Source: Teretinema zuelzerae
GTDB lineage: Bacteria > Spirochaetota > Spirochaetia > Treponematales > Treponemataceae
NCBI RefSeq assembly: GCF_021021555.1
Contig: NZ_JAINWA010000003.1
Span: 1,116,001-1,180,000, forward strand
DNA length: 64,000 nt
Direction of reading: 5' to 3'
The notes below the pieces were generated by a model, which saw only the letters and a list, made by a program, of their open reading frames with translations, was not told the DNA's origin and made no database searches. This document shows, in pieces, positions 11,316-63,653 of the stretch. Positions within the stretch are counted from its first letter, which is position 1. Every line of letters begins with the position of its first letter. A program made the translations under genes and the position numbers.

Positions 11316-14300
11316 CTAAAATTCCGCGTATAAGTACAGGGCTTTTTTCGGAACGGTTACCGGCCGGCCGCCTTCCGCTCCCGCGCGCGCGCCTGAGTCT
11401 CCCTTGAGCACGCCTGTTTCATCGCAGACAAGGCGCCAGGGGCCTCCCTTGAACGACGAGGGAAGCGCGACGATCTGCGGGATTTCCGCCGGATTGACCA
11501 GAACGCAGACGCCCTTCCATGCGTCCTGAACCGCATCCCCGTCGATGGTCCAGCCGAGTATGGGCGGGGCCGCAAGGCAGGACGCCGATTCGGCGGACGT
11601 TCCGGCGGCGGAATCGGCGGAGACGGCACCGTTTCCGGCTGCGGGATGAGGAGCGGGCTGTGAGGCGCTCTCCAAGAAGGAAAGTGACCGGGCAACCGCT
11701 TCGGCTGTTCCGAGCCGGAACAGGGGGTGAGCCTTCCGCAGGGCGATGAGGCCGCGCGTATATTCCACGACAGAGTCTTTTTCAGCCCGGCGGCTCCAGT
11801 CGAGGGCGTTGACGGCGTCTCCGAGGTTGTAGGTATTGTGGGAGAACGCCCGTTTTTTATCGCTCGTGCGCCACAGGTCGTAGAGGTCGGGGTGTTCTGC
11901 CAGAATGGAAGGAGGTATCTCCTTCGTGCGCAGAAATTCCATGCCCGCGTGAAGGATGGGCATTCCCTGGGACAGGACGACGAGGGCGATCGACAGCTTG
12001 GCGAGCGCTTCGTAGCGGGACTCGTCGGCTCGTTCCTCTACCAGGACAAGCTTATCGTAGAGCGTGGCGTTGTCGTGAATCTCCGCGTAATTGACCGAGG
12101 TTCCGGGATGGTCCGACCAGGGATTCGGATTGGCAGTGCCGTCCACCTTCCGGTTATGCACCTGGGGATGGAAGACCGCGCCGACCAGACCGAATTTAAC
12201 GGCTTCGCGATGGCTTCCGTCGTGGACGAATCCTCCTTCCATGGCGTTGAACACCGGACCCTTTATTCCGCAGCGGAAGGCGTCGTTGAAGAAACCGATG
12301 CCGGGCATCTTCCGGGCTTCCTTCATGCTCGCGCCGACCATTTTACCGGCGCGGTACATGTCCCAGCCTTCGCCGTATACCAGCACATCCCCTTTGATCC
12401 TGCGCAGCTCGCGCATGATTTCGTTCATGGTTTCCACATCGTGGAGGCCCATGAGGTCGAAGCGGAAGCCGGATAGCTTATACCGGGAAAGCCACCAGCA
12501 CAGGGACTGTTTCATGTACTCCCGGAACATGACGCGCTCGCTCGCGGTATCGTCTCCGGCCCCGGAATAGCTGTCCACGCGGAAGTAATAGCCGGGGACG
12601 CAGATGCCGAGGGGATGGTTCTGGGCAGCGGGCACGTGGTTGTACACGACGTCCATAATGACGCCCATTCCGGCCGCCGCGTAGTCCCGGACGAGGGTTT
12701 TCAGTTCGCGGATTCTGGCGGCTCCGTCCGAAGGATCGGACGAATACGAGCCCTCCGGAACCGAGTAGTTCCCGGGGTCGTAGCCCCAGTTGTATGCGCC
12801 GGAAACAAAACGCGAGCGGTACTCGGGATCGCGGGAACGGCTCTCGTCGACGCTGGAAAAATCGAAGACCGGCATGAGCTGCACGTGGGTGAAGCCCATC
12901 GTTTTCAGATGGTCGAAGCCGGTGGAAAAGCCCTTGAAAGAAGTTCCGGCAAGGGCCGCGCCTTCGTATGTCCGGCGGCTGGATTCAGGGCCGTCCCAGG
13001 TCGGGGACGAGGTGAGATCCGCGACGTGAACCTCGCAAACGACCGCGTCGCTCGGCGAACCGAGAGAAGGGGCGGCCGTCTTGTTCCAGCCGGGAGGATC
13101 GGTCGCCTCGGGGTCGACGACCTGGGACCGCAGTCCGTTGCATCCGCAGGCGCGCGCGTACGGATCGGGGGACTCGCGCGTGATTCCGTGCGCCGTAACC
13201 CGCCAGGCGTAATAGAGCCCGTGCTGGTCGCCCGGAAGAGAACGATCCCAGATTCCGGCCCTTCCTTCCTGGACTGTGCCTTCCCGGGCGGGAAGAACGG
13301 CGTCGGGTTCCGCTGAAGAATCGCCGCGGTAGAGAACCAGCTGAACGTTCCGGGCCGTCGGAGCCCACAGGCGGAAGACGGTTTCATCGCGAGAATAGAC
13401 AGCGCCCAGCTCCGCCTTCGTCCGGTATTTCTCGATAAAATAATCGGAATCGAAAAACCATTCGAGGGCCGCGGCGTTCGAGCCTCCTCCGTGCGGGCTT
13501 TTCATTCTCCCGGATAAAATCAGCTGTTCAAGCCAGTCGTCTCGATGTATAGCGCCGCAGAATTCTGCGTCGAAGCGGCGGGCGGGAAAGGACGGAGGAA
13601 AGGAGACGCCGGGTTCGGCGGCAGGCAAAAGGAATTCCAGGCTCTTGTCCGCTTCCAGCAGGCGGCCGCAGACCATGAGCGGGCGTAGGGAGAGACGGGA
13701 TCCCGTTTTATCAGGCGAGACGCCGGGATTCCATAGAAGAGAGCACCACACGCCCCCGTCGGCATCAGGACGGCGCAGCTCGATCGACAGCTTCCATCCC
13801 GGCCCGAAAAAGACTTCGGCGGCGACCCGGTTCATTCCCAGGGGAAGACAGGGGCGCAGTTCGATCTGGCGATCGATGAGCCGGGGATTGAAACCGACAA
13901 GGTCCTGAAAGGCGTTTCGGGCGAATTCAGAAACGCTCCATGCCTGGGACCAGGTTCCCGAAAGAACAGGTTTGCCGTCCGCGCCGGGCTCCGCATGGAT
14001 GTTTTCGCTCAAGGAGCCCGCGCAGCCGTCTTCCAGAATCATGCGGGCTTCTTCCCTCAAAAGGGCGGCCGCGAGATCGGGAAGCGTCCCTGATCCGGTG
14101 CCGGCGCGGGTTTGGGACAGGGCGGCGGCGGTTACGTAGGGACCGGTGTTCCACACCCAGATTGTTCCGTTATGATAAGCCGCGTCCTTGTGGTAGCGGC
14201 CGGGATACTCGTGGCGGGGATGAAAGAGGGGATCCTCCGGGGAGAGGCTGAACAGGCCGAACGGTGAAGCGAGTTCGCGGGTGACGTTTTCCAGCACGGC

Positions 14301-15821
14301 GTCGGACTGCGCGGCGTCCAGAAGGGCAGTTTCAAAGCCCTCTTTTCCCGAGGTTTGCGGGGAATCCAATATCGCCGGAGCGGTGAGCGCGAACAGCTGA
14401 TTCGGCCGTACGCGGAAATCCCGAAGCCATTCGCCGTGAGGCCCGGGGGGAAGATGATCCGCCAGGGCTTTTCTCGACGGACACCAGAATAGACGGCGGA
14501 AAGAGTCTTTCACCCTCCGGGCCTGAGCCGCGCGTTCCTCTGCGAGAGCGGGAAAGCCTTTCAGCCGGGCGATGCGGGATCCGATGACGAGGGCCGTATA
14601 CCACAAGCTTTGAATATCGTTCGCCCGGTCCCCGCGGGGAGACCAGGGCTCGTTGCCTCTGATGCGGGCGTCCATCCAGGTGTCCGCGTCGCCGTGGAGA
14701 AGCAAACCGTTCGAGTCCGTGCGGCGCGTGGCGTCCGACTGAAGGGCCAGATCGACGGTCGGACCGAGCTCCTCGAGAATCTCGAGATCTCCGGTATACT
14801 GCAGATACTCCCAGAGAGAACGGATGAACCAGAGAGTTCCGTCTGCCGTATTATATATAACGTCGTTCGATCCGCGGAACCGGTTGGGAATCCGTCCCCA
14901 GTCAGGACTCTCCGGATCCTTATTCTGATGGCAGGCGAAGGAGACGAGAACTTCTCTGGCTTCCTTAAACCTGCCGGACGTCAGCAGAATGCCGGAAAGA
15001 GCGATGAAGGTATCGCGGCCCCAGTTATCCCTGAACCAGGGAAGCCCGGCCCATATGCCGGGGCCGTGGTCGTTGACGGCGAGCATCCAGCCGGAAAAAC
15101 GAGCCCATTTTACCGCGGAATCGAAGGCAGGATCGCCTGTATCGAGGGCGCAGGAATCAACGAATTCTGCAACACTTTTCCGATGGGCGCACACCGCGTC
15201 CGAGGCGGCGAGAAACGCGGCTTTCGCGCAGGCGCGCTCGGGCGTCGATTCGAAAGCGAGATACCATCCCGGATTGGTCGAACCTTCGGCGTAAAGCACA
15301 GCGCGGTCCCGGTCCGGAGATTCCACGGTGAAGGGAGAAACGGAGGCGATCGCGGCGCCCGCATGATTGTGCCACACGACGGCCGACCCGTGCTCTGCCC
15401 GGGTCCAGCGGCCTCCTGAAAGAGAGGAATCGAATACAAGGCCGAAGCCCGCGTGGGGAACGGCCGCTGAACCGCGGGATGAATCGAATACGCGGGAGGC
15501 AGAAAGGGAGAGCCAGAACGCCTGTTCATTTATCAGAAGGGAGACGTGAAGCCCGAGCGAGCCGGAAGGATGGGCGGAGCTGGGGCGGTTGAAAATGACG
15601 GTCATGCCCTCGGGCCGGACAAGGGTCTCAGCGGCGTTGATCCGGTATAAGTCGGCGTGGTCCTCCGGACAGAGGAACACATCCGCAAGATAGCGGGTCT
15701 CTCCGCGGAAATACCCCCCGCCGCAGGAGTCGGCGGAACAGGAGAGAAGCTCGAAATAGCCGTTTTTCCGATCAGTCCATGCCATTCTGCGGGAATCGCC
15801 CGGAAGAATACGTATCATCAT
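11316..15821 (-). CDS. Fusion of GH133 amylo-alpha-1,6-glucosidase and GH13 type I pullulanase
   Basis: A 1501-residue protein joining two different alpha-1,6-debranching enzymes. Residues about 1-740 are a glycogen-debranching GH133 module: GIWAGLPWF and NWGRDTFIALSG (about 255-275), NTADGTLWFIRSLWEY, DADTWMDA, RPNQLFALT, YHNGTIWVWNTG, and GTWSQAWSVSEFAR. From about 800 on is a GH13 pullulanase: YNWGYDPGNYSVPEGSY (about 1008), VVYNHV, GFRFDLMGLHD with the nucleophile Asp (about 1120), VYGEGWD with the acid Glu (about 1150), and AEIHDN (about 1248). All catalytic residues of both halves are present. No signal peptide, so probably cytosolic, acting on glycogen or imported maltodextrins. Start ATG 15821 is chosen from the promoter and the end of homology; the frame is open further upstream. 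Confidence 0.88.
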   Translation of the reverse strand: MMIRILPGDSRRMAWTDRKNGYFELLSCSADSCGGGYFRGETRYLADVFLCPEDHADLYRINAAETLVRPEGMTVIFNRPSSAHPSGSLGLHVSLLINEQAFWLSLSASRVFDSSRGSAAVPHAGFGLVFDSSLSGGRWTRAEHGSAVVWHNHAGAAIASVSPFTVESPDRDRAVLYAEGSTNPGWYLAFESTPERACAKAAFLAASDAVCAHRKSVAEFVDSCALDTGDPAFDSAVKWARFSGWMLAVNDHGPGIWAGLPWFRDNWGRDTFIALSGILLTSGRFKEAREVLVSFACHQNKDPESPDWGRIPNRFRGSNDVIYNTADGTLWFIRSLWEYLQYTGDLEILEELGPTVDLALQSDATRRTDSNGLLLHGDADTWMDARIRGNEPWSPRGDRANDIQSLWYTALVIGSRIARLKGFPALAEERAAQARRVKDSFRRLFWCPSRKALADHLPPGPHGEWLRDFRVRPNQLFALTAPAILDSPQTSGKEGFETALLDAAQSDAVLENVTRELASPFGLFSLSPEDPLFHPRHEYPGRYHKDAAYHNGTIWVWNTGPYVTAAALSQTRAGTGSGTLPDLAAALLREEARMILEDGCAGSLSENIHAEPGADGKPVLSGTWSQAWSVSEFARNAFQDLVGFNPRLIDRQIELRPCLPLGMNRVAAEVFFGPGWKLSIELRRPDADGGVWCSLLWNPGVSPDKTGSRLSLRPLMVCGRLLEADKSLEFLLPAAEPGVSFPPSFPARRFDAEFCGAIHRDDWLEQLILSGRMKSPHGGGSNAAALEWFFDSDYFIEKYRTKAELGAVYSRDETVFRLWAPTARNVQLVLYRGDSSAEPDAVLPAREGTVQEGRAGIWDRSLPGDQHGLYYAWRVTAHGITRESPDPYARACGCNGLRSQVVDPEATDPPGWNKTAAPSLGSPSDAVVCEVHVADLTSSPTWDGPESSRRTYEGAALAGTSFKGFSTGFDHLKTMGFTHVQLMPVFDFSSVDESRSRDPEYRSRFVSGAYNWGYDPGNYSVPEGSYSSDPSDGAARIRELKTLVRDYAAAGMGVIMDVVYNHVPAAQNHPLGICVPGYYFRVDSYSGAGDDTASERVMFREYMKQSLCWWLSRYKLSGFRFDLMGLHDVETMNEIMRELRRIKGDVLVYGEGWDMYRAGKMVGASMKEARKMPGIGFFNDAFRCGIKGPVFNAMEGGFVHDGSHREAVKFGLVGAVFHPQVHNRKVDGTANPNPWSDHPGTSVNYAEIHDNATLYDKLVLVEERADESRYEALAKLSIALVVLSQGMPILHAGMEFLRTKEIPPSILAEHPDLYDLWRTSDKKRAFSHNTYNLGDAVNALDWSRRAEKDSVVEYTRGLIALRKAHPLFRLGTAEAVARSLSFLESASQPAPHPAAGNGAVSADSAAGTSAESASCLAAPPILGWTIDGDAVQDAWKGVCVLVNPAEIPQIVALPSSFKGGPWRLVCDETGVLKGDSGARAGAEGGRPVTVPKKALYLYAEF

Positions 15822-57394: not shown

Positions 57395-57478
57395 CCCCGG
57401 ATGGTGGAATTGGTAGACACGCTAGTTTCAGGTACTAGTGCTCTCACGGGCATGGAAGTTCAAGTCTTCTTCCGGGGA
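57395..57478 (+). tRNA. tRNA-Leu (anticodon CAG)
   Basis: Acceptor stem CCCCGGA (57395-57401) pairs with TCCGGGG (57471-57477), discriminator A. D-arm GGTGGAATTGGTAGACAC, anticodon stem CTAGT/ACTAG with loop TTCAGGT giving CAG, a long variable arm (TGCTCTCACGGGCA) as expected for leucine, and TTCAAGT in the T-loop. CCA is not encoded. This tRNA is the likely chromosomal target of the neighbouring integrase. Confidence 0.95.
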
Positions 57479-57481
57479 CTC

Positions 57482-57591: not shown

Positions 57592-58815
57592 GTGTGGCAT
57601 ACTCCCTTTTCCCTGTACCGCCGCCGCGTTTCCTACAGCCGAAAGCGCTCCTTTTACGTTCAATTTTGGGATCCCGAAAAAGGATCCTATCGTACCGGCG
57701 TATCCATACGCCAAATCGCAGTCAGAATGAATCTCGATCCCGACGAATGGGACATCGCAAGCCCTGCCGGTGCCCGCGCCGTGGCCACGGAAGCCATCAA
57801 ACGCGGGCTCGTCGCCACCAGGGGCCTCGGAGACCGGAAGGCGGGCGACTACCTCGCCGAGTTCTGGGACTGGGATACCAGCCCGTACATCAAGGGACGA
57901 CTCGCCCGAAAGAGCGATGCCCTTGGCAGAACCTACTGCCGAACCTGCAAGAGCTGGGTGGTCAGGTACTTCAATCCCTCCCTGGGAGAGCTGAAGCTCT
58001 CCCAGATCACCACGGGCAAGCTCGAAAGCTGGTTCATGGGCCTGAAGGACAAGAGTGGGCTGCACCCGCAGACCCTCAACAACATCCTCCAATCCGTCTC
58101 CATCGGCTTCAAGGAAGCCTACCGTCTCGGGATCATCCCCAGAAACCCGGCTGCCTCCATCCGTCCTCTCGGCGCTAAAACCGCCGAAAAGGGTATCCTC
58201 GACACGAAGGAGGTCAAAGCCCTCCTTGCCCTCGATTGGCCCGACGAACGCGGACGCCTCGCCTTTACCCTCGCCCTTATGGCCGGGCTCCGGCTTGGCG
58301 AGATCCAGGCCCTCTGCAAGGAGGACATTATGGACGACCACCTTCTCATTAGTCATTCCTGGGATAAAATGTACGGAATGAAATCCCCGAAAGGCAAGCG
58401 TTCCCGCATCGTGCCGGTACCCGAATCCGTCCTTTCGGAACTTCGGGATTTGGCTGGCAGGAATCCCTGGCTTAACGGGTTCGTCTTCTGGGACGAGAAA
58501 ACGGGAGAAAGACCCCTCGTTACGAGGCGCATCGAGAACTGGTATTACGCCGCCCTTGAGAGAATCGGGATTCCCGGGGATACCGGCGAGAAACCCTCGC
58601 CCAAGAGCAGGCATGGCCGCGCGCTGTATTTCCATGGTCTTCGTCACCTTTGTAACTCCCTACTCCGGGGCGTATTGCCCGACGACAAGCTCAGGGCCGT
58701 CATCGGGCATGCCGACATATCCATGACCCGGCACTACGATCACCTGACCGACGTGGACCGGAAACTCGTGCTTGAAGCCCAGAAAGAGCGTTTCCTGGGC
58801 CTCATGCCGAAATGA
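57592..58815 (+). CDS. Tyrosine recombinase/integrase (copy 1, tRNA-proximal)
   Basis: A 407-residue phage-type integrase. Catalytic set visible: Arg 234 (AGLRLGEIQAL), lysine hairpin region (MKSPKGKRSRIVPVP), His 348 and Arg 351 (FHGLRHLCNSLL), His 373 (IGHADISM) and Tyr 382 (RHYDH). A SAM-like core-binding domain precedes (about 85-185). Starts at GTG 57592 with GAGGT upstream. Placed next to and reading away from tRNA-Leu, the usual arrangement for a tRNA-targeting element. Its base composition is like the host, unlike the following AT-rich genes. Related to copy 2 (shared HSW-K-G-KSPK pattern). Confidence 0.93.
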   Translation: MWHTPFSLYRRRVSYSRKRSFYVQFWDPEKGSYRTGVSIRQIAVRMNLDPDEWDIASPAGARAVATEAIKRGLVATRGLGDRKAGDYLAEFWDWDTSPYIKGRLARKSDALGRTYCRTCKSWVVRYFNPSLGELKLSQITTGKLESWFMGLKDKSGLHPQTLNNILQSVSIGFKEAYRLGIIPRNPAASIRPLGAKTAEKGILDTKEVKALLALDWPDERGRLAFTLALMAGLRLGEIQALCKEDIMDDHLLISHSWDKMYGMKSPKGKRSRIVPVPESVLSELRDLAGRNPWLNGFVFWDEKTGERPLVTRRIENWYYAALERIGIPGDTGEKPSPKSRHGRALYFHGLRHLCNSLLRGVLPDDKLRAVIGHADISMTRHYDHLTDVDRKLVLEAQKERFLGLMPK

Positions 58816-59055
58816 GGGAGAGGGCTGTTTAGTAGACCCTCTCCTACAGCACACGGAATGCTGCAGGAGAGGTGTCGTAAAAAAGACCTACCTCATGATA
58901 GGGTAAGAAATCGAAGTGATAAATCAATAAGCTATTCCCCAAAATTCGTGAGAACCGCTTACCAAGGAAAAAGGTATTGATTGCGAACCTCTCATAAAAC
59001 ACCGAAAATACAGTATGAGAGGTTTGAAACCCCTTTGAAACCCTGAAGTGTAGGA
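58816..59055. other. Non-coding structured region after the integrase
   Basis: No gene seen. Three complementary arms follow the integrase stop: A GGAGAGGG (58817-58824), B CCCTCTCC (58837-58844, extended CCTCTCCTACAGCA to 58851) and C TGCTGCAGGAGAGG (58859-58872). B can pair with A or with C, but not both. A further hairpin with an 11-bp stem AACCTCTCATA/TATGAGAGGTT is at 58986-59024. A short direct repeat TTGAAACCC is at 59024 and 59035. Confidence 0.6.
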
Positions 59056-59406
59056 TTAACCCTCAACCACTTCAACAAAACCTAACGGCATATAGTCAGA
59101 TCCCCAAGGATTGGAATAGACAACCTCCGGAGGCCAAGTGAACCCGTCTTCATCAATATATGAAGCCTTCTCTTGATTCCATTCATAATCGAGATAGTAG
59201 TTCCTCACAGCATTTTCTAGGACCTCCATAGCAGGTTCTTCTATAAGCGGAGGGAGATTAGGGAAAAGCGCAATCAAATTTTTCCATTCCTTAATTGCGT
59301 CTTCCCTAAGATCGGCAGCCCATTTATATCGTCTTGATAACCAAACGAACTGCGAAACCAAGAGAGTAAACTGAACTTGAACCCAAGATTCCATAATACT
59401 GTCCAT
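59056..59406 (-). CDS. Small unknown protein of the element, paralogue A
   Basis: 116 residues, soluble, acidic, no known motif. It shares with the next protein (59508-59900) the pattern FV-LS ... W--L---P--P ... E--E---RNYY, so the two are diverged duplicates. I take ATG 59406 because AAAGGA is well placed for it; an ATG three codons upstream is too close to it. The second half is rich in W, Y, P, D. Function unknown. Confidence 0.65.
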   Translation of the reverse strand: MDSIMESWVQVQFTLLVSQFVWLSRRYKWAADLREDAIKEWKNLIALFPNLPPLIEEPAMEVLENAVRNYYLDYEWNQEKASYIDEDGFTWPPEVVYSNPWGSDYMPLGFVEVVEG

Positions 59407-59507
59407 AAAATCCATCCTTTGAGGCCAAACCTTCTGGCCTCGTACTGCGAATTTGTGATGCGGGGTTATCCACCCCGCTATGCTTTGATATTTAAATCGC
59501 CTACGTA

Positions 59508-59900
59508 TTACTCATCAACATCGTCGTCATCGTCATCTTCGTCGTCATCTTCATCATCTTCAAAATACAAAGGAGGCCTGCACCAGTCGTCTCCCAACAG
59601 GGTAAAAAACGAATCATCCTGAAAACAGATTGAGTCGTCCTCATTCGTTAGTGATGCGTTTGGCTGCGACGCCCCAATGCATAACACAAAATAATTCCTT
59701 AGGGATTTTTCCATAAATTCCCAAGCGCCAATAGGAATCGCCGATGGGATATCGGGATGAAGCTTGTTCAGTTTTTGCCACTGACCATCAGCTATTTCGA
59801 GTAGCTTGTCAGCTAGCTCCTCATTGCCAGATAACCTAACGAACTCCGAAAAATAGCGTACGGCATGGGCCTTCGCCCAACGTCTCATGATCTTCTGCAT
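59508..59900 (-). CDS. Small unknown protein of the element, paralogue B with acidic tail
   Basis: 130 residues. Residues about 18-73 match paralogue A (FVRLSGNEE ... QWQKLNKLHPDIP ... WEFMEKSLRNYF). The last ~18 residues are almost pure Asp/Glu (DDEDDDEDDDDDDVDE), as in DNA-mimic or histone-like-protein-binding proteins; this is only a resemblance. Good Shine-Dalgarno AAGGAG. A GCGGGGT/ACCCCGC hairpin (59460-59478) lies just downstream, in the gap to paralogue A. Confidence 0.65.
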   Translation of the reverse strand: MQKIMRRWAKAHAVRYFSEFVRLSGNEELADKLLEIADGQWQKLNKLHPDIPSAIPIGAWEFMEKSLRNYFVLCIGASQPNASLTNEDDSICFQDDSFFTLLGDDWCRPPLYFEDDEDDDEDDDDDDVDE

Positions 59901-60077
59901 GCATTCACTCCTTAGAGGTCGTTCCTTGTGACCTCACAATGTTAGTCATTCGCGCGTGCGGTCCTATGCCCCGCCCTAATACTTCTCAGCTGTGATAAAA
60001 TCCAGGTTCAAATGAGTAAAGATGTTACTCGCCTTAACCGCAGATCTTCCATTCATTCTCACTGCCAGAAATCGAGG

Positions 60078-60100
60078 GATGCTCTTCTTGGAAGAGCATC
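60078..60100. terminator. Hairpin after integrase copy 2
   Basis: GATGCTCTTC-TTG-GAAGAGCATC, a perfect 10-bp stem with a 3-nt loop, 10 nt past the minus-strand integrase stop. There is no T run, so termination is uncertain. The rest of the ~210-nt gap up to 59901 shows no convincing gene. Confidence 0.5.
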
Positions 60101-60109
60101 TCTCATTCA

Positions 60110-61306
60110 TCACGCAGTTGCCCCCCTTGCCGTGAATGGAATTATCGGGAAAGCTAACTCCTGGGCATCTTTTACCATTCGCAATTCGATGTCTGTGACG
60201 TGATGATAGTGGTCGGTCATTTCGGGGCTACTATGCCCGATGACCTTGCGTAGAGCCTCATTCTGAAGATGCGGTGCCATCATCGAGTTGAAGTAATGCC
60301 GCGTACTATGGAACCGAAGATTTCGTTCCCGTTGTTGTTCTTCGGTTATGCCAATCCCTTGAAGAGCACGATTCAGAGCCCACCTTGGTAATTTGTCGGA
60401 CACGGGCTTTCCCGAATTTGATGAAGCGAAGACGAAAGCATCGTCATTCTTTTCCTGACCGACAAATGACCAGAGCTGATTCCACAGCCATGCCGGAATT
60501 GGTACGGTCCTCGTTTTCCCGCTCTTCGGGGATTTCAGCCCATGCGTCTTCGACCAGGAGTGCGTTATTGCGACGAGATACAGCTCGCCCGTCCCGTTTA
60601 CACGGCATTGAAGATCTCCCTTTTTCAATGCAAGGATCTCCCCCATGCGCATACCCGTATGTATCGCGACCATGAACATAAGCTTACCGATGAGGGATTC
60701 CCATCCTAATGACAACAAGGAATTCACTTCGAACTGCTCAAAGCAGCCTGTAATTTTACGGCGTGCCGCAAAAGCAAGGATATTTTCAGTCGGATCCCGT
60801 TGGATTATCCATTGCGTTGCAGCGTACCGAAGTGGCTTTGTCAGGGACGCAAAAATCGCGTTGATCGTTTGTGGCGTTAGCTTTGGATATTTGTCACGAA
60901 GTTCCCGTTGGACTCTCCTTAACCAAAACGGCGTGACCTCAGCCAGGATGATGTCGTCACCGATAATCCTTTTTAGGTACCGAGCGAAGTAACTTCTCGT
61001 TGCCCGTATATGGTCCGACAAGAAGGCATTCTCATCCCGTTCCCTTTTTTCGGCGTACCATGATGAGTTCTCTTCTCCATAAAACCACTCAACGTAACGT
61101 CCGACGGGCATCTTTGCGGTAATTACCGTCATGCGCTGTTCATCGAGAAACTGCCTATACGCACGAGCCGCAACCTTTTCAGCTTCTGACCTATTTCTGG
61201 CACCTGTTGAACGGGCTTTCATCTCCTTTCCGGTGATGGGATCAAAGAAAATGTAATAATAGACTCCGTTACTCCGGCGGTAGATACGGTATTTTCGAAG
61301 TATCAT
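60110..61306 (-). CDS. Tyrosine recombinase/integrase (copy 2)
   Basis: A 398-residue phage-type recombinase with the full catalytic set: Arg 220 (HTGMRMGEILAL), lysine hairpin (LKSPKSGKTRTVPIP), His 333 and Arg 336 (FHSTRHYFNSMM), His 358 (IGHSSPEMT), Tyr 367 (DHYHHV). N-terminal DNA-binding part RKYRIYRRSNGVYYYIFFDP. It overlaps the upstream 213-residue gene by 4 nt and ends the minus-strand operon. Clearly homologous to copy 1 but diverged and of different base composition. Confidence 0.93.
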   Translation of the reverse strand: MILRKYRIYRRSNGVYYYIFFDPITGKEMKARSTGARNRSEAEKVAARAYRQFLDEQRMTVITAKMPVGRYVEWFYGEENSSWYAEKRERDENAFLSDHIRATRSYFARYLKRIIGDDIILAEVTPFWLRRVQRELRDKYPKLTPQTINAIFASLTKPLRYAATQWIIQRDPTENILAFAARRKITGCFEQFEVNSLLSLGWESLIGKLMFMVAIHTGMRMGEILALKKGDLQCRVNGTGELYLVAITHSWSKTHGLKSPKSGKTRTVPIPAWLWNQLWSFVGQEKNDDAFVFASSNSGKPVSDKLPRWALNRALQGIGITEEQQRERNLRFHSTRHYFNSMMAPHLQNEALRKVIGHSSPEMTDHYHHVTDIELRMVKDAQELAFPIIPFTARGATA

Positions 61307-61944
61307 AGTACGTCCTCGTTGCTCCTTTCGTTCATAAGGTACATCGCCAGCATTACCTGACTCGCAGGGTTGGCATTTTGTAGGGTTAACGCCTTCTTTT
61401 CAGTCATCTCCTCAAATGCGGAAACGATGAAGGGGTTTGCAAAATCTCGGAAGGCTTCCACAGACGCAATCGAATCTTCACCTGTCTTGATACGATCCAA
61501 AGACTCAAGCAGGACGTCAAAACTCTTTAGGAAATCTCGCACCGCCGGTACATGCAGCCAGAAAATTAACAGGTCCTTTACGTAGACATTCGGATACCCA
61601 TAACCCCGGGAGGATCGATTTTCAGGATGTGCAGCTCCGAGGTACTCATCCATTACCTTCCTGAAGTCCTTGATAGTGAGAACCTTGATTTGAAGAAAAA
61701 TCTCATGATCGCTCATCAAATTTCCATCATCGTCGTACGCGTAACCGAACTCTATAGCCAGATGCCGATAAATGAGCTTTGTCGATCTCACGTACGCATC
61801 GTACAGCTGGAAAATAGTCTTTGGCTGAGTGCTTCTCCCAAGCGGTGAAGTACCCGAAACGCATAGGTACACAAGAAAAAAGAGACCAGAATTCCTTATC
61901 AAGAACAGGAATTCTTCGTAATGAACCATAAGGGCTGTTCTCAT
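61303..61944 (-). CDS. Unknown protein of the element, upstream of integrase copy 2
   Basis: 213 residues, mostly helical, soluble apart from one hydrophobic stretch near the start (FLFLIRNSGLFFLVYLCVS). I do not recognise it. Its stop overlaps the integrase start (ATGA), so it is made together with the recombinase and could be an accessory recombination or helicase-loading factor; inferred from position only. Shine-Dalgarno GGAGTGA. Confidence 0.65.
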   Translation of the reverse strand: MRTALMVHYEEFLFLIRNSGLFFLVYLCVSGTSPLGRSTQPKTIFQLYDAYVRSTKLIYRHLAIEFGYAYDDDGNLMSDHEIFLQIKVLTIKDFRKVMDEYLGAAHPENRSSRGYGYPNVYVKDLLIFWLHVPAVRDFLKSFDVLLESLDRIKTGEDSIASVEAFRDFANPFIVSAFEEMTEKKALTLQNANPASQVMLAMYLMNERSNEDVL

Positions 61945-61990: not shown

Positions 61991-63091
61991 TCATGACAGC
62001 CTCCCGTTTATTGCAGCCGTCGCGTAGTTCTGGATGAGCCAAGTAAAATAGATATCCAGATTCTCCTGCGTCGCAAGCCTTGACTCGAAGAAAAAATCCC
62101 GTTGATCTTTCTGGATTACTTTTCGGAAGGGAATATAGAAGGTTCTGTCAGAAATCGTCGATTCAGTTCCGTACTGCGGTTTCAAAGGATAGTTAGAATC
62201 ACAAAAGAATTTGCACTGCGGATAAAACAGACGAAGCGAGTGAGTAACGAATGGATTCACTATTCCATCCCGGCCGGTAACTCTCTTGATAGCTGCCTCA
62301 TTGAAAATCGAATCCTTCCCTAGCTCATCGATTCTCAAAAACCGAATACCTGAGCTTGTAAAGAGTTCCTTTGCCAAACGTTCTTCTTTTGATGGATGAA
62401 ACCAATCGGGAGGAAATGTTGCGGAATAAGATCCGAACATCTTTTCGATAAGCTTGAATACCGTGCTTTTCCCAGCATTCTTTGGCCCCACGATACTCAC
62501 AAACATCTTCAGAGTTTGCCAACCAATGAGACAGGTAGCAAAGAAAAAATGCAGGAGGTTTGACGTTGCTTCATCCCCTACGCATGAATCGATATAGTCC
62601 TTGATGGCTATAGTTCTAAGCCCCAAGTATTCAGATTCGAATTTCGCTCCTGTTTGGTACGTCAAACGATGAGCGATATAACGTCCGCTATCATGGATCC
62701 ATTTATCCAGTCTACTTAGCGGGTCCTCGCCCCTTTCCAAAAGATTCATGAAGGCAGCAAAATTAAGTACCTTACGATTGGGCATCACTAGGAGGTGTTC
62801 AGACATGTAATTCATGAACTCAACCCGCAATTCAGGAAATTGCGCTAGGAGATCCGTCGGATTCCGTGGGACGGATCCTCCAGTACAGATAACGGCTTCC
62901 CTTAGAATAGTGAAGAGAACCCCCATACCAATCAAGAAATAGAGTCCGAATAAAATATGGAAGGCACGGTAACGGCCACCGCCATCTTGGGTATAGGCAT
63001 AATTGTTCGGATTCATATCTTGATTTCCCTTTTCATCCTGAGGGATAAAATTGGGAACAGGTAACCCCTCTTCCATTTCATGCCGGTACAT
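61991..63091 (-). CDS. Phage/plasmid SF3 helicase (D5/P4 primase C-terminal type)
   Basis: A 366-residue protein. Walker A VGPKNAGKSTVFKLI (201-215), Walker B-like RFLRIDELGKDS (250-261), the SF3 C motif FFCDSNYPLKP (296-305) and an Arg in SDRTFYIPF (about 316). The N-terminal ~100 residues include two hydrophobic stretches. No primase/polymerase domain is present, unlike full P4-type alpha proteins. It should unwind DNA for replication of the element. ATG 63091 has strong Shine-Dalgarno GGGAGGTGAT; the frame is open 16 codons further upstream. Overlaps the previous gene end by 14 nt. Confidence 0.85.
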   Translation of the reverse strand: MYRHEMEEGLPVPNFIPQDEKGNQDMNPNNYAYTQDGGGRYRAFHILFGLYFLIGMGVLFTILREAVICTGGSVPRNPTDLLAQFPELRVEFMNYMSEHLLVMPNRKVLNFAAFMNLLERGEDPLSRLDKWIHDSGRYIAHRLTYQTGAKFESEYLGLRTIAIKDYIDSCVGDEATSNLLHFFFATCLIGWQTLKMFVSIVGPKNAGKSTVFKLIEKMFGSYSATFPPDWFHPSKEERLAKELFTSSGIRFLRIDELGKDSIFNEAAIKRVTGRDGIVNPFVTHSLRLFYPQCKFFCDSNYPLKPQYGTESTISDRTFYIPFRKVIQKDQRDFFFESRLATQENLDIYFTWLIQNYATAAINGRLS

Positions 63092-63404
63092 TATCACCTC
63101 CCTCATAATCATCAAAATCGGAAGGCTCATATCCAGCAAATGAACAGCAGGGTTTTACCAGCTCGAGTACGAGATTGGATCGAGAGGACTGTGCGGGAGT
63201 AGTTTCGATAAGAAAATTCTCGGCACCAAATCTTTCGCCAAACTCATGGGAAACTTGCACTGGCCTCACATATAAAACGAGATTGGGCGTGATGGGAAAA
63301 TTGTGATGTTTTACCGAGTAGAAAACACGGAAAACCCTAGATCGCTTGTAACAGCGATACACGCGAACACGCATAGACAATTTCTGGAATAGGGTACGTA
63401 TCAT
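63078..63404 (-). CDS. Small unknown protein of the element
   Basis: 108 residues. Basic first half (MIRTLFQKLSMRVRVYRCYK), then mixed, ending acidic (PSDFDDYEGGDNVPA). No recognised motif. Strong Shine-Dalgarno AAGGAGGTG selects ATG 63404. First gene of the operon that continues with the helicase. Could be a DNA-binding replication accessory, but that is only a guess from charge and place. Confidence 0.6.
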   Translation of the reverse strand: MIRTLFQKLSMRVRVYRCYKRSRVFRVFYSVKHHNFPITPNLVLYVRPVQVSHEFGERFGAENFLIETTPAQSSRSNLVLELVKPCCSFAGYEPSDFDDYEGGDNVPA

Positions 63405-63653
63405 GTACACCTCCTTGGCCACTAATCTGGCGCAAAAGGCGCACCTCAAGAAATTGAGATTGATCAGATTTATCGAAGCACTGAGTCTCTTGATTACTAT
63501 TTTTTTTGGAATTTGGAAAAATCTATAATGTAAAAATAAAGTATTGTATTATATATATTTAAGTAACAATTCAATTTAAAATTGAGAAAGGCTCTTTCAG
63601 TTTTTACTTCTTCGAAAGAGCCTTCCTGAAAAAAGATTTTATCTTTTTATTTC
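63405..63653. other. AT-rich non-coding region
   Basis: No gene seen. 63481-63600 is very AT-rich (runs of T and a TATATATATT stretch at 63549-63558) and contains the palindrome CAATTTAAAATTG nearby. Promoter-like hexamers for the minus strand are abundant, so the helicase operon promoter probably lies here. An origin of replication for the element is also possible next to its helicase. Confidence 0.45.
63588..63624. terminator. Terminator-like hairpin after the last gene
   Basis: AAGGCTCTTTC (63588-63598) pairs perfectly with GAAAGAGCCTT (63614-63624), 15-nt loop. It lies about 30 nt past the minus-strand stop at 63654; only a modest T content follows. Confidence 0.55.

Follow-up and report, generated by a model that had tools for sequence, protein, structure and literature searches.

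We propose, tentatively and with somewhat less than even confidence, that two small neighbouring genes of Teretinema zuelzerae, here called A and B, are orphan cargo of a defence-rich tRNA-Leu island and represent a duplicated helical binding domain with an acidic tail on one of the two copies. The pair is located in a stretch of 64,000 nucleotides that was analysed as a whole and is referred to below as the window.

Two diverged paralogues and an acidic tail

The two open reading frames that the first-pass annotation had placed at 59056-59900 are both present there on the minus strand. They are arranged in tandem and co-directionally, B being followed by A, and both are downstream of the integrase gene int2 in the direction of transcription. 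B (P0002; 59508..59900, minus strand) encodes 130 aa with a net charge of -20 and is preceded by a good Shine-Dalgarno sequence (AAGGAG). A (59056..59406, minus strand) encodes 116 aa with a net charge of -12, lacks an acidic run and corresponds to P0001 minus the first three residues. A longer reading of A (59056-59415) comprises 119 aa; translation probably starts at its fourth codon, at 59406, because this codon is preceded by AAAGGA at a distance of 8 nt and its methionine aligns with Met1 of B. The G+C content of the pair is 0.417 and 0.458. Located between the two genes is a GC-rich 7-bp hairpin (59460..59478), which is not accompanied by a T run on the minus strand and is a possible attenuator.

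That A and B are paralogues, as had been suggested from shared sequence patterns, is borne out by pairwise statistics. BLASTP aligned them with 31/88 identical residues (35% over 88 aa; 47.8 bits, E 6e-13). Their local score of 113, compared with a shuffle mean of 29.2 (sd 5.0), was reached in none of 5000 shuffles, and the same holds for the score of 107 obtained without the C-terminal parts (shuffle mean 24.9; 0/5000). Among 565 stop-to-stop frames of at least 80 aa in 114 kb, the best match of either protein is the other one alone (E ~2e-9), the runner-up being at E 0.25. The part common to both comprises residues 1-71, and the shared motifs are FV.LS, W..L..L.P..P and RNY[YF]; the second had been given as W--L---P--P, one residue short. 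DNA identity of the two genes amounts to 0.52 and drops to 0.22-0.28 once the two sequences are offset by 1-3 bases. Broken down by codon position (71 gap-free codons), identity is 0.49 at first, 0.65 at second and 0.42 at third positions, and this prevalence of second positions fits the expectation for protein-level constraint on the pair. As to the earlier proposal that the duplication took place inside the element, its place and time cannot be told from the sequences, no relative outside having been detected.

One of the proteins had been said to end with about 16 Asp/Glu residues. This is the case for B, whose C-terminal end is EDDEDDDEDDDDDDVDE; 16 of the last 17 residues are acidic (59511..59561, minus strand). 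The tail is the only run of at least 10 Asp/Glu (GAN) codons in the genome (3.62 Mb, 3 contigs): a ten-GAN-codon search returned five overlapping places, all within the tail, and the control returned zero. The underlying DNA is a trinucleotide-based imperfect tandem repeat (TRF: period 18, 1.9 copies, 94% matches) and, given this repeat-like nature, growth of the tail by slippage is likely. The acidic run is confined to B, whose negative charge sits in the unstructured C-terminal part; residues 1-71 have a net charge of +2 in B (pI 9.2) and of -3 in A.

It could be that the acidic tail of B has no function and arose by neutral expansion of a repeat. We consider it quite improbable that the same applies to both genes as a whole, i.e., that they are decaying or neutral island ORFs devoid of a present function, with the tail as a mere slippage product. 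The repeat DNA of the tail is compatible with such a scenario, as is the lack of conservation elsewhere in the genus-to-phylum samples described below, but the two frames are intact and equipped with Shine-Dalgarno sites, and the diverged copies have kept a signal at the protein level.

Structure prediction, which had been proposed as a follow-up, yielded the same three helices for both proteins, with good confidence for A and moderate confidence for B. In the AlphaFold2 model of A (mean pLDDT 67.4; 82-92 in blocks covering residues 1-60) the helices comprise residues 2-23, 27-47 and 57-76, and in that of B (mean pLDDT only 58.2; 73-83 in blocks covering residues 1-50 and below 50 at residues 76-127) residues 2-23, 27-47 and 57-78. 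This agreement is partly built in because both models were based on a two-row alignment in which each protein took the sequence of the other. The prediction for both A and B is thus a domain of three helices, about 75 aa long, with a poorly structured C-terminal part behind it, and the acidic end of B is predicted to be unstructured. Foldseek searches of the PDB with the two models gave no significant match (best E 4.9 and 4.4), nor did a comparison of model A with viral models (best E 1.3). With VIA-align the best match of model A was rubrerythrin (Z 6.5 over 50 residues), a likeness that we rejected as being inside the chance range for helical bundles. The missing structural match is no evidence for a new fold.

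Search for relatives and the MCUGI lead

The profile searches that had been suggested as a check found no match of the pair to a known family in Pfam, PHROGs, NCBIfam or PADLOC, which sustains the earlier statement that no such family is recognisable. Specifically, hmmscan of A and B against Pfam returned zero families at E up to 10, PHROGs gave chance-level unrelated matches only (E 0.21 and 0.36), and zero families of PADLOC-DB matched either protein; nothing credible emerged from any of the four libraries. A tblastn search of phages and plasmids yielded one chance match (E 0.8) and no relative, and scans of viral contigs and of genome contigs were likewise negative for relatives of the pair.

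Genomes were sampled at five taxonomic levels, and these samples overlap one another. Only the own genome was found in the samples of the genus (1/12; E up to 0.01), the order (1/390), the class (1/268) and the phylum (1/392; E up to 0.001 for the latter three). The family sample (E up to 0.01) returned 3/274 genomes, namely the own genome and two weak matches, G226 (E 0.003) and G166 (E 0.009). Both were rejected as chance matches since they lie inside much longer open frames, the one in G226 reading as a protein kinase by eye (HRDIKPDN). When the pair profile was run against 2630 frames of at least 40 aa from the window and the fetched loci, after ten loci duplicating the region of the window itself (L001-L004, L007-L009, L012-L014) had been omitted, only the pair itself and the weak frames of G226 and G166 scored below E 0.8. 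The orphan status of the pair refers to these samples of taxa and to seed-based scans.

Sequence searches of the PDB gave gp84 as the best match of A (E 0.3), the Rubisco small subunit for the pair profile (E 0.34) and MCUGI (8ain_B) as the best match of B (E 0.18 over 75 aa). The last of these leads to the idea of a nucleic-acid mimic, be it a diverged uracil-DNA glycosylase inhibitor of the SAUGI/MCUGI type or another anti-defence mimic, which we regard as very unlikely. None of 5000 shuffles of the MCUGI stretch reached its score with B, but MCUGI had been picked from 177635 sequences. As a remaining lead, EFVRLSGNEELA of B is locally similar to EFVQLGIEELA of MCUGI, in another register and with one extra residue between the acidic positions. 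Recombinases are carried by SCCmec cassettes as well. It is in these cassettes that SAUGI-type genes reside according to excerpts of PMC10303552, a setting that speaks for a mimic.

By contrast, A resembles MCUGI at chance level (score reached by 2663/5000 shuffles), and the Pfam SAUGI profile (PF06106), which is weak even on the MCUGI stretch itself (0.0029), yields no hit across the own genome at E up to 10. The Ung-binding strand/helix displays the acidic pattern E-X(6)-[ED]-[ED] (PMC10303552, in excerpts); in B this pattern occurs only inside the acidic tail and is absent from the core, and in A it is found at residue 79. The same excerpts (PMC10303552) describe the MCUGI stretch as a strand, but AlphaFold2 predicts a helix in the corresponding part of B, and Foldseek with the models of A and B, which are of limited confidence, listed no SAUGI at E up to 10. 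In view of the chance-level score of A, the missing profile match and the lack of the acidic pattern in the B core, we do not assign the pair to MCUGI/SAUGI.

The island, its integrases and its cargo

The pair is part of an island of 38.4 kb delimited by two identical 53-bp direct repeats, of which the left one (57427..57479, plus strand) is the 3' part of a tRNA-Leu CAG gene and the right one lies at 95793-95845 (numbering carried on past the window). The G+C content of the island is 0.432, compared with 0.587 before and 0.559 after it in the sampled flanks. The tRNA-Leu 3' end recurs (1 mismatch in 20) at 96096 in carried-on numbering, about 270 bp past the right repeat, perhaps as a trace of another integration.

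An integrase had been noted next to the pair, and int2 indeed adjoins it; there are, however, two integrases, one on each side. Both are located at one end of the island (57592-61306), flank the pair and point towards it. The tyrosine integrase gene int2 (60110..61306, minus strand; Pfam Phage_integrase 2e-17, phrog_1 1.1e-40) is directly upstream of the pair and co-oriented, and int1 (57592..58815, plus strand), likewise assigned to the tyrosine integrases by Pfam and PHROGs, is located beside the tRNA-Leu gene and is convergent with the pair. The two integrases are 35% identical over the matched part. A 14-bp inverted repeat (58838..58872; 93% complementary, 7-nt loop) separates the convergent genes int1 and A. 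We rejected the idea that int2 marks a separate element of its own since no second att pair was found in 114 kb: no exact 15-mer of 58816-60110 recurs there in direct or inverted orientation.

Upstream of int2 follow a 213-aa ORF (61303..61944, minus strand) whose family was not recognised in Pfam or PHROGs, and the C-terminal half of a P4-type primase/helicase (61991..63139, minus strand; TIGR01613 2.5e-20, which is below the cut-off of this model, and phrog_1156 4.5e-21). The N-terminal part of the latter was not recognised, and an overlapping ORF is present upstream at 63078-63449; this is perhaps a decayed replication module.

This neighbourhood would suit a role of the pair in element housekeeping, i.e., in regulating int2 and thereby the directionality of excision and integration, or in the replication of the P4-like module. 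The pair is situated directly downstream of int2 on the same strand and has a similar G+C content, and the primase part lies upstream. On the other hand, no integration or excision family was matched in PHROGs or NCBIfam, and acidic proteins are atypical among DNA-binding excisionases. Relatives of int2 (E up to 1e-18) occur in 149/380 order genomes, and the examined flanks of int2 relatives (loci L015-L043) contain no recognisable copy of the pair. On balance, we consider a housekeeping role unlikely.

According to PADLOC and Pfam, the island cargo includes a type I restriction subunit (PDLC03040, E 0) and an Eco57I-type methyltransferase, along with PDC-S11, AbiD/Abi_2, an RmrA-like gene, RT-Toprim retron parts, HATPase genes and an HNH gene. 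The candidate defence protein PDC-S11 (L004:15918-17090, minus strand; E 7e-164, DUF4268) is encoded within the restriction cluster, where its gene adjoins the AbiD gene and an ORF named HsdS-like by eye. The retron-type RT-Toprim (L005:1200-2965, minus strand, outside the window) is split into separate ORFs for RT and Toprim, with a one-base overlap. It corresponds to PADLOC I-C, which is labelled 'single gene'; RT covers positions 7-289 and Toprim positions 303-550 of the 568-position model, and the split may be either natural, as a two-gene version, or the product of sequencing or a frameshift. Also inside the island are three transposase-like ORFs (by eye) of 403 aa that look identical (L005:10174-11385, 11543-12754 and 14110-15321, minus strand), one of them between HATPase-type genes.

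An alternative is that A and B are tandem immunity or antitoxin-like genes directed against a toxin carried elsewhere. The diverged paralogues stand in tandem, and both are small and, on the whole, acidic; small immunity genes commonly form paralogous arrays, and orphan immunity genes occur without toxins. For T7SS, arrays of non-identical immunity paralogues are described in excerpts of PMC9484751. Since no toxin-like gene was recognised adjoining the pair and matches to immunity families in Pfam or NCBIfam numbered zero, an immunity function appears improbable to us.

Proposed role and comparison with known systems

An anti-defence, immunity or mimic function had been suggested for the pair and is plausible. 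The defence-rich island fits a conflict role of this kind, whereas the usual globular, whole-protein DNA mimic is disfavoured because residues 1-71 carry the charges given above and the charge of B sits in its unstructured end. The evidence presented here singles out no mechanism, and orphan pairs in defence islands are, in our judgement, nothing unusual.

If the pair is indeed orphan cargo with a duplicated binding domain, the three-helix domain would serve as a protein-binding module, engaging in homo- or heterodimers or contacting a partner protein, and within the element it would act in conflict or in regulation. By analogy, the repeat-expanded tail of B may be a polyanionic competitor of nucleic acid, binding to a basic surface either on the partner or on the complex itself. 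A bacterial precedent is Hfq, in which the acidic tip and RNA compete for basic residues (PMC5606850, in excerpts). Tailless A would do the basic job, so that the tail would tune a common function rather than constitute it. Excerpts of PMC9122126 describe small defence genes carried next to conserved genes in satellites and prophages, in one case between cI and the integrase gene. We count against this reading that a 209-nt gap containing a hairpin separates int2 from the pair and that the region directly upstream of the pair yielded no promoter-like site.

It is tempting to speculate, as a long shot, about a two-gene inhibitor module in which a helical heterodimer sits on an enzyme that processes nucleic acid, whether from the host, a phage or a rival element, the B tail is a flexible decoy in the cleft, and tailless A sets the strength of inhibition. 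If restriction or some other nucleic-acid enzyme were its target, the pair would represent an inhibitor family missed by all profile libraries searched, and an activity against restriction would be testable against the restriction system of the island itself. Otherwise the pair is a further case of orphan cargo, for which the annotation as paralogous, co-directional, three-helix and acidic-tailed is useful and holds no surprise.

With SAUGI/MCUGI (PF06106) the pair shares the small size, the overall acidity and the location in a mobile cassette, and B shows the weak 75-aa resemblance to MCUGI. Unlike these inhibitors, A shows no resemblance, the pair has no SAUGI profile match, and the core is predicted to be all-helical and lacks the acidic pattern. 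The antirestriction DNA mimics ArdA and Ocr are small, strongly negative proteins of mobile elements. A and B are likewise small and negative and come from a mobile element, and the island carries type I restriction; however, they match no family, the charge of B is in the flexible C-terminal part with a basic core, and the net charges of residues 1-71 (+2 in B, -3 in A) would speak against a folded, strongly acidic surface.

The anti-phage hotspots of P2 phages and P4 satellites resemble the present locus in that small cargo is found near an integrase and a P4-type primase in a defence-rich setting (PMC9122126, in excerpts). Here, by contrast, it is a whole 38.4-kb island with two integrases, and any activity of the pair is putative. 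The closest parallel to the predicted architecture of B is provided by Hfq, where a disordered acidic C-terminus likewise follows a folded domain with basic residues. No sequence relation between the two was recognised, and B is to be seen as a works-like analogy and not as a member of this family. The tip of E. coli Hfq is short (DSEETE; PMC5606850, in excerpts), compared with a tail in B of which 16/17 residues are acidic.
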